The translations under genes and the position numbers were made by a program. Positions 43,686 to 45,005 of a stretch of 45,398 bases of DNA are shown here, one piece after another. This DNA comes from Alistipes sp. GTDB lineage: Bacteria; Bacteroidota; Bacteroidia; Bacteroidales; Rikenellaceae. Each line of letters starts with the position of its first letter. Positions within the stretch are counted from its first letter, which is position 1. The notes beneath the pieces were generated by a model that worked only from the letters and a program-made list of their open reading frames with translations, made no database searches and was not told the DNA's origin. The DNA is taken from positions 1-45,398 of the forward strand of contig JAGAOZ010000010.1 of the NCBI GenBank assembly GCA_017623505.1, written 5' to 3'.

Positions 43686-45005
43686 ATGGAAAGGAAGAAG
43701 AAGCGTGGCGCAGCTATTGTTGTCAATCTGCTTATCGCTGTGGTGTTATCTGTTGTGGTGAACTTCTCACCACTGTTGTCGCTTATCTTCAACAGCAACG
43801 ACGCATCGTATCTGCATAACCCCGAAAGTGGTGTTGTGGAGTACGATGGTGTGTTACACGTCTCGAATGATGGCTATGGTTACCTTCTCGATGCCAAGGC
43901 ACACGCCTCGGAGGAGGTTATCGACTCTATCTATGTGAGTGGCCGTTTAGTCAGGCTCTACCGCTTGCAGTCGGGAGATGAGATATGCTGTACAACCGTC
44001 GCTCCGAATAATAAGGGGGGCAACCTGCGTGTCGATGAGGTCGTAGCGCGTAATGGCCAGCCGTCACAGTCTGTGGTGAACGATACGGCAGATATGATTG
44101 TTCAGTTTGTCTATTTCCTGCTTCTGTCGTGGCTGCTGCTGATGATAATGACGTGGCGTAAGGGTGTTACACACGAGAATTGGCACTACTTGGGGCGTGC
44201 CGTATTGGTTGTGCTGCTGTCGTTTGGCCTCTACTTCTGTACTCCGGTGATGGATTGGCGCACAGGCGAATTTGATGTGATGTTCAGCCGTGAGGGCCGC
44301 CATCTTGCCGACTGGCTCATCATCTTGAAGTATACCGTTGTGGTTGTTGCCACGGTGCTCTATGGCCGCATCTACCTGCTGCTGACACAGCACCAAAACA
44401 TCATTCTGGAGAATGAGCACCTGCGTAGCGAGAATCTCCAGACGCGCTATAATATGTTGGTGGGACAGATTAACCCTCACTTCTTCTTCAACTCGCTCAA
44501 CTCGCTCTCGATGTTGGTGCGTGAGCAATCTAATGATAAGGCTCTGGAGTATATCGACCAGCTCTCATATACCTTCCGTTACATCATCCAAAACGGACAG
44601 AATACGACGACCACTCTGGCCGACGAGATAGCCTTTGCCAAGGCTTATGGCGAGCTCTTTAAGGTGCGTTATGCCGATAAGCTCTTCTTCGACATCGACA
44701 TCGACGAGTCACTTGCAGAGTGGACCTTGCCGGCGTTGTCGTTGCAGCCGCTGATTGGTAATGCTGTGAAACACAACACTATAACCAAGAAACGCCCATT
44801 TACGGTCAGCATCCGCACCGTGGGCACTACGCTTGTTGTTGAGAACCGCAAGGCTCCGAAGTTGGATGCCGAGCCTTCGACAGGTATCGGCTTGCAGAAC
44901 CTGCAAAGCCGCTGGCAGCTTATCACGGGCCAAGATATTGAGATTGTGGATGGCGAGGAGTTTTTCACCGTACGTATGCCGTTGCAGAAGCAAACTGAAA
45001 AGTAA
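43686..45005 (+). CDS. LytS-type sensor histidine kinase with a Rho-like OB domain
   Basis: 439 residues. Basic N-terminus, TM1 at about 10-34, an extracytoplasmic part (35-135), TM2 about 136-156, TM3 about 171-187, TM4 about 209-233, a coiled coil, then the LytS/YehU-type kinase: QINPHFFFNSLNSLSML (phospho-His265), the N box LQPLIGNAVKHN and the G box STGIGLQNLQSRW. Residues about 54-120 (GVLHVSNDGYGYL, IYVS, VRLYRLQSGDEI) match the RNA-binding domain of transcription terminator Rho in order and spacing. With a basic cytoplasmic N-terminus this domain would be outside the cytoplasm. No LytTR regulator gene follows within the window. The exact ligand is unknown. Confidence 0.85.
   Translation: MERKKKRGAAIVVNLLIAVVLSVVVNFSPLLSLIFNSNDASYLHNPESGVVEYDGVLHVSNDGYGYLLDAKAHASEEVIDSIYVSGRLVRLYRLQSGDEICCTTVAPNNKGGNLRVDEVVARNGQPSQSVVNDTADMIVQFVYFLLLSWLLLMIMTWRKGVTHENWHYLGRAVLVVLLSFGLYFCTPVMDWRTGEFDVMFSREGRHLADWLIILKYTVVVVATVLYGRIYLLLTQHQNIILENEHLRSENLQTRYNMLVGQINPHFFFNSLNSLSMLVREQSNDKALEYIDQLSYTFRYIIQNGQNTTTTLADEIAFAKAYGELFKVRYADKLFFDIDIDESLAEWTLPALSLQPLIGNAVKHNTITKKRPFTVSIRTVGTTLVVENRKAPKLDAEPSTGIGLQNLQSRWQLITGQDIEIVDGEEFFTVRMPLQKQTEK

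Follow-up and report, generated by a model that had tools for sequence, protein, structure and literature searches.

Domains of the Rho and cold-shock type are known to bind nucleic acids inside the cell. Two described signalling systems come close to the locus considered here. BtsS of E. coli is a LytS-type histidine kinase with a LytTR partner (PMC10653868), as the kinase of this study appears to be, and in the Cpx system the C-terminal part of NlpE is an OB fold and CpxP contains an LTXXQ motif (PMC2954213). In this work we analysed a 45,398-nucleotide contig of Alistipes sp. (JAGAOZ010000010.1, the whole of which is called the window below), near the end of which lies a gene for what appears to be a LytS-type kinase with an unusual captured domain: an OB domain of the Rho RNA-binding family, inserted between its first two transmembrane (TM) segments and predicted to lie outside the cytoplasm.

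The Rho-type OB domain and its predicted topology

The kinase gene and its parts are arranged as follows.

43686..45005, forward strand: LytS-type membrane histidine kinase with an inserted Rho-type OB domain (open frame with an ATG start, 439 amino acids)
43707..43799, forward strand: TM1, residues ~8-38 (family-averaged hydropathy window 6-38; model helices 2-25 and 27-40)
43830..44063, forward strand: Rho-type OB (cold-shock-like) domain, predicted extracytoplasmic, residues 49-126
43869..43886, forward strand: RNP1-like DGYGYL, residues 62-67, equivalent to DGFGFL of Rho (D62 and Y66 invariant in 33 aligned sequences)
44085..44165, forward strand: TM2, residues ~134-160, with the basic loop WRKG at its end (hydropathy)
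44181..44264, forward strand: TM3, residues ~166-193 (hydropathy)
44301..44390, forward strand: TM4, residues ~206-235 (hydropathy)
44445..44684, forward strand: His_kinase region PF06580 with NPHFFFN (Pfam; H265 invariant in 33 aligned sequences)
44598..44996, forward strand: ATP-binding (catalytic) region, residues ~305-437

The protein belongs to the LytS type, combining an N-terminus of four hydrophobic segments with a PF06580 region (Pfam, E 2.7e-22, residues 254-333), the H265 and N269 residues of which do not vary across 33 aligned kinases; H265 is presumably the phosphoacceptor, as this histidine is in the family. Its closest named relative is a protein of a Rikenellaceae bacterium (74% identity), followed by proteins of named Alistipes. 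The source genome (2.0 Mb, 29 contigs) encodes the true Rho elsewhere, on contig C8.

Residues 54-110 of the kinase match the Rho_RNA_bind family PF07497 with E 1.7e-8 and 34.5 bits against a curated cut-off of 27, and the excised OB segment alone gives E 7.5e-10 and 38.9 bits. The NCBIfam models of Rho also match, at 30.8 and 24.3 bits, which is far under their whole-protein cut-offs of 315 and 509; with these scores, and with His_kinase present instead, the protein is not a Rho ATPase/helicase. A sequence search of the PDB returned Rho in all 13 matches at E <= 10 (best E 0.00046). When the 33 aligned kinases were scanned one by one (E <= 0.01), PF06580 was found in 33 and PF07497 in 30, and because these family members match individually, the likeness to Rho is not a matter of chance.

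The reverse search gave the same picture. A profile made of 28 OB domains from kinases alone, free of Rho rows, matched (E <= 0.001) 235 genomes in an order sample of 247 and 246 in a phylum sample of the same size, and the matched loci that were inspected (the Rho of the own genome and L118-L135) were Rho in 19 of 19 cases by their OB sequence and the GKGQR...GKT motif, 13 loci being recognised by one pattern and the remaining six by a looser one. Alignment by hhalign of 61 kinase domain rows with 13 Rho domains covered 73 columns with a probability of 99.0% and E 3.2e-18. The predicted fold is a five-stranded OB with a short helix following strand 3, as in PF07497, and in the structure comparison of the modelled domain (VIA-align 2 rescoring of the best 1000 chains of Foldseek) the 24 best rows are all Rho. 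The full-length model has a predicted template modelling score (pTM) of 0.52 and a local confidence (pLDDT) below 50 at residues 37-48, and the placement of the OB domain relative to the membrane was not taken from it. Homology and predicted fold, as established by computation, confirm that the segment is an OB domain of the Rho RNA-binding family.

The sequence-only reading had proposed a Rho-like OB segment on the strength of motifs, and the profile, PDB and structure comparisons agree with it. The motifs GVL, DGYGYL, D-S-IYVS and L..GD, together with N-G, are shared with Rho in the alignment, and the aromatic residues of the RNP1-like motif are indeed kept. The same reading had placed LRVDEV on the terminal LKV strand of Rho; this part has to be corrected, as the alignment anchored on N-G moves the strand by ~3 residues.

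The insert is under purifying selection: the ratio of nonsynonymous to synonymous substitution rates (dN/dS) across the OB domain is 0.06-0.39 in eight of ten pairs and undefined in two, some of the synonymous distances being near saturation. Seven OB positions (D62, Y66, D80, S81, D98, N123, and G124 in the numbering of this kinase) show no variation among 33 aligned sequences.

Family-averaged hydropathy of 61 sequences gives four segments (6-38, 134-160, 166-193, and 206-235), and lysine plus arginine make up a fraction of 0.26 of the N-terminal residues and 0.25 of those in the TM2-TM3 loop, as against 0.13 for the loop that bears the OB domain and 0.09 for the one between TM3 and TM4. Since the kinase domain is cytoplasmic and there are four TM segments, the OB domain between TM1 and TM2 is predicted on the periplasmic side, where the sequence-only reading had also put it.

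The domain is 71-83 residues long in 58 kinases; in the other three (L011, L013, and L036) long inserts between OB strands 2 and 3 extend it to 131, 112, and 129 residues, respectively. The strand 2-3 loop also bears a C-x-C motif in a sub-lineage including L017, L019, L023, L028, L044, and L046 (for example, IVCDCEQRDSVYVS in L044), which may form a disulfide or a metal site in the predicted periplasmic domain.

Distribution and origin of the insert

A homologue of the kinase (E <= 1e-20) occurs in 121 of the 150 sampled genomes of the family. At least two PF07497 matches per genome were found in 56 of 62 genomes of the own genus (the own genome included), in six of the 11 genomes of genus g16, and in the one genome of g17, while in two further g16 genomes the kinase is the sole PF07497 match among the matches listed; the extra match was identified as the kinase for the matches listed and the sequences inspected. 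Genomes of the other genera have one PF07497 match or none, except for G043 and G055, which have two with PF07497 and one with the kinase-only profile.

Twenty chosen regions from the family genomes comprised seven kinases with the insert and 13, from six genera, without it. All 13 insert-free kinases have a short TM1-TM2 loop, and the remainder of the protein aligns. On the tree of the kinase part minus the insert (calculated by a quick method from 59 of 89 rows, keeping 38 of the 68 OB-bearing ones, and with a warning on long outgroup branches) the OB label needs one change (SH-aLRT 96), and the insert-free lineages lie outside. This single gain with insert-free lineages outside it points to an insertion into a pre-existing kinase, and most likely the OB domain was inserted once, into a short periplasmic loop, before Alistipes and two genera close to it diverged. 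The inserted domain is of the Rho RNA-binding family, and 70 residues are too few to identify Rho itself as its donor.

The sequence-only reading had suggested looking for the domain in other kinases of this type. It is present in those of the own genus, g16, and g17; elsewhere in Bacteroidota no OB-bearing kinase was seen in the order and phylum samples among the matches listed for the kinase-only profile, the order sample containing just two family genomes besides the own one. The best match outside the own genome has E 8.4e-12 (46.7 bits) in the order and 4.1e-11 (44.7 bits) in the phylum, which is the range of Rho, while the kinase of the window scores 87 bits and a divergent kinase 66.6 bits with this profile. 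A second, weaker match is present in at least 10 order or phylum genomes; in the four that were scanned, RNB and OB_RNB domains mark the protein as RNase R-like, a relative from the cold-shock superfamily.

Gene neighbourhood and possible functions of the insert

In relatives, the kinase gene is followed by a gene for a LytTR response regulator (PF04397, PF00072), in some genomes by a gene for a small protein, and then by a gene for an outer-membrane protein (OMP), the OMP_b-brl_3 barrel. Pfam identities of the neighbours come from one scanned example each, and from three for the small protein, of which two match DUF4890 and, below the cut-off, LTXXQ, and one (L046) has no match. Two genes upstream of the kinase are also conserved and are present in the window.

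43080..43616, forward strand: hexapeptide-repeat (gamma-carbonic-anhydrase-like) gene, conserved upstream neighbour (PF00132, neighbour counts)
42069..42848, forward strand: MazG nucleotide pyrophosphohydrolase gene, conserved neighbour (PF03819, neighbour counts)

Among the 38 loci L033-L070, where some misses are contig ends and some loci are near-copies, the hexapeptide gene was counted in 37, MazG in 34, and the OMP gene in 34; the LytTR regulator, the candidate partner expected of a LytS-type kinase, adjoins the kinase in 37. The regions fetched for the 13 insert-free kinases all contain MazG, the hexapeptide gene, and the regulator, and 12 of them the OMP gene. Among the seven g16 and g17 loci whose kinase carries the OB domain, the regulator and the OMP gene occur in six cases each, but the hexapeptide gene and MazG in only one, which means that the upstream neighbourhood is not conserved in these genera. 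The own genome has an orthologue of the regulator (C17:182842-183609, 66% identical to the query) with an OMP_b-brl_3 gene adjoining it.

These data lead us to suggest, as a reading that we consider somewhat probable, that the kinase is an envelope-homeostasis sensor with the OB domain as input, a LytTR regulator as output and an OMP gene under control, where the analysis shows the parts and we infer the ligand, the direction of control, and the regulon. The role of an input module, which the sequence-only reading had also assigned to the segment, is suggested by its position and conservation. The domain would bind either a ligand of the envelope or one of its proteins, with the retained aromatic face (62, 64, and 80 in Rho numbering), the H or N at position 110, and nearby arginines as the binding surface; binding would alter the geometry of TM1 and TM2, and this change would lead to phosphorylation of H265. 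The phosphate would then pass to the LytTR response regulator, whose gene adjoins that of the kinase in relatives, and this regulator may control the adjacent OMP_b-brl_3 gene and, if present, the gene of the small secreted DUF4890/LTXXQ-like protein. The whole would represent an outer-membrane or envelope homeostasis system working in a Cpx-like way.

Several observations weigh against this reading. Mean pairwise identity is 0.42 in the OB domain and 0.71 in the kinase domain, and such lower conservation is expected of a sensor but equally of a passive spacer. Insert-free orthologues at the same locus imply that the system can function without the OB domain, and in three of these 13 loci (L143-L145) ~2 kb separate the regulator from the kinase. 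We counted the small secreted gene in 19 of the 38 loci L033-L070 and in five of the 13 insert-free ones, and since its occurrence is so patchy it is not an obligatory partner; a dependence of the kinase on this gene was ruled out on the same ground. In the own genome the kinase and the regulator are on different contigs, where they could still be neighbours because they lie ~0.4 kb (C13) and ~0.8 kb (C17) from contig ends; in the sister genome G089 they are ~32 kb apart on the same contig. Finally, the topology is based on hydropathy and charge, and the lysine plus arginine content after TM4, which must be cytoplasmic, is 0.13, equal to that of the OB loop.

In the sister-species locus L033, the gene behind the kinase (7315-9240) is an open reading frame of 641 amino acids, presumably an MnmG, with the LytTR regulator ~32 kb off. 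In the window, the kinase is directly followed, at the contig end, by two copies of an interspersed repeat which consists of CGTCATTCCCCG, a short hairpin, and GCGAAGGGAATCTACC and resembles repetitive extragenic palindromic (REP) elements or miniature inverted-repeat transposable elements (MITE). In its copies, GAAGGGAATCTACC starts (0-based) at 9852, 10332, 24206, 24609, 45038, and 45286 of the forward strand and at 34306 of the reverse strand of the window, and at 9793 of L116. The hairpin arms vary among the copies with complementarity kept (CTAACC/GGTTAG, CTCAC/GTGAG, CTTAC/GTAAG, and CTTGTG/CACAAG).

The envelope-sensor reading has to be compared with the view that the OB domain, having a Rho-type predicted fold, has kept the ability to bind single-stranded nucleic acid, or nucleotides, on the outer side of the membrane, so that the kinase senses extracellular RNA or DNA, for example, from lysed neighbours. 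We counted the corresponding positions in 58 kinases (three of the 61 were dropped for long inserts) and 13 Rhos, with residues numbered as in E. coli Rho by way of the PDB alignment. Position 60 is D, 64 is Y, and 95 is D in 58 of 58 kinases, and 120 is N in 57; the aromatic-type positions are retained throughout, 62 being Y in 29, H in 28, and F in one, and 80 being Y or F in all. The positions R66, D78, E108, and Y110, which we take to be base contacts of Rho and which are present in 13, 13, 12, and 10 of the 13 Rhos, are retained in only 1, 0, 3, and 0 of the 58 kinases, where 78 is S in 57 and 110 is H in 46 and N in 12.

According to PMC11018626, D60, F62, S84, Q85, R87, R88, F89, and K115 are among the residues lining the extended RNA site of Rho, and in E. 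coli Rho the R88E substitution abolished and K115E reduced the binding of rut RNA. R87 is present in 39 and R88 in 29 of the 58 kinases, which is in favour of nucleic-acid binding, but K or R at 115 is found in 21 of 58 kinases versus 10 of 13 Rhos, and the kinase of the window itself has R, L, and E at 87, 88, and 115. The domain is no more acidic than that of Rho, the median net charge over the same columns being 0 in 58 kinases (-9 to 4) and -2 in 13 Rhos (-4 to 0); a slightly longer piece of 61 kinases gives -2. Net charge was discarded as a test of nucleic-acid binding because it does not tell the kinases and Rhos apart. The aromatic and basic surface is thus partly retained, with the presumed specific contacts lost, and a nucleic-acid ligand looks rather improbable to us. 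The extracellular RNA or DNA ligand offered by the sequence-only reading has in its favour the aromatic positions and what is left of the arginine-rich loop, and against it the replaced contact positions. Even in its broad form, in which a periplasmic Rho-type OB domain lets gut Rikenellaceae detect nucleic acid or nucleotides outside the cell, or another polymer stacked in a similar way, this view is doubtful.

In another explanation, which we find quite unlikely, the insert has no ligand and serves as a structural spacer or for dimerisation, the TM helices doing the sensing as in BtsS. BtsS binds pyruvate inside its TM region (PMC10653868), and this sensing within the membrane shows that an outer domain is dispensable in LytS-type kinases; orthologues without the insert occupy the same locus, and the OB domain evolves faster than the kinase domain. 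The invariant OB positions and the low dN/dS values given above speak against a passive spacer. A cytoplasmic OB domain, with a number of TM helices other than four, is very improbable: the topology was predicted from hydropathy and charge only, but with four clear hydrophobic segments and the kinase domain in the cytoplasm the TM1-TM2 segment has to be outside, and the N-terminal and TM2-TM3 loop charges in the 61-sequence family fit this position. Chance or convergence of short beta-rich sequences, as a source of the likeness to Rho, is negligible, being ruled out by the profile matches in both directions, the hhalign result, and the structure comparison.

Comparison with known systems

The RNA-binding OB domain of Rho (PF07497; PDB 1a62) and the insert belong to the same domain family, which in the kinase is combined with His_kinase in place of the Rho ATPase. 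Unlike that of Rho, the OB domain of the kinase is part of a membrane protein, is predicted outside, and has R66, D78, E108, and Y110 replaced. With the four-TM kinases of the LytS type (PF06580) our kinase shares the His_kinase region, the four TM segments, and, in relatives, the neighbouring LytTR regulator; it differs by the folded OB domain in the TM1-TM2 loop, where the 13 insert-free relatives have a short loop only. BtsS is described with seven TM helices and with pyruvate bound inside the membrane region, and an OB domain is not mentioned in the abstract of its description (PMC10653868).

The likeness to Cpx consists of a kinase and regulator pair, an extracytoplasmic OB fold and an LTXXQ protein, here represented by the DUF4890/LTXXQ-like gene in part of the genomes; the OB fold of Cpx belongs to a separate lipoprotein (PMC2954213), whereas here an OB fold of Rho type is built into the kinase itself. 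The Cpx parallel is drawn from the gene neighbourhood.

No histidine kinase with an outer domain of the Rho or OB type was found described in the full-text literature searched, most subscription papers being outside its scope. We know of no other histidine kinase with a captured transcription-terminator domain as an outer sensor, and if the nucleic-acid reading were true, the kinase would be the first such case known to us. The insert-bearing and insert-free kinases at the same locus represent a clean "before and after" case, in which a nucleic-acid fold was possibly recruited for transmembrane signalling. Whether its ligand face was kept, so that common gut bacteria would sense extracellular nucleic acid, or was rebuilt for an envelope ligand is now a testable question.
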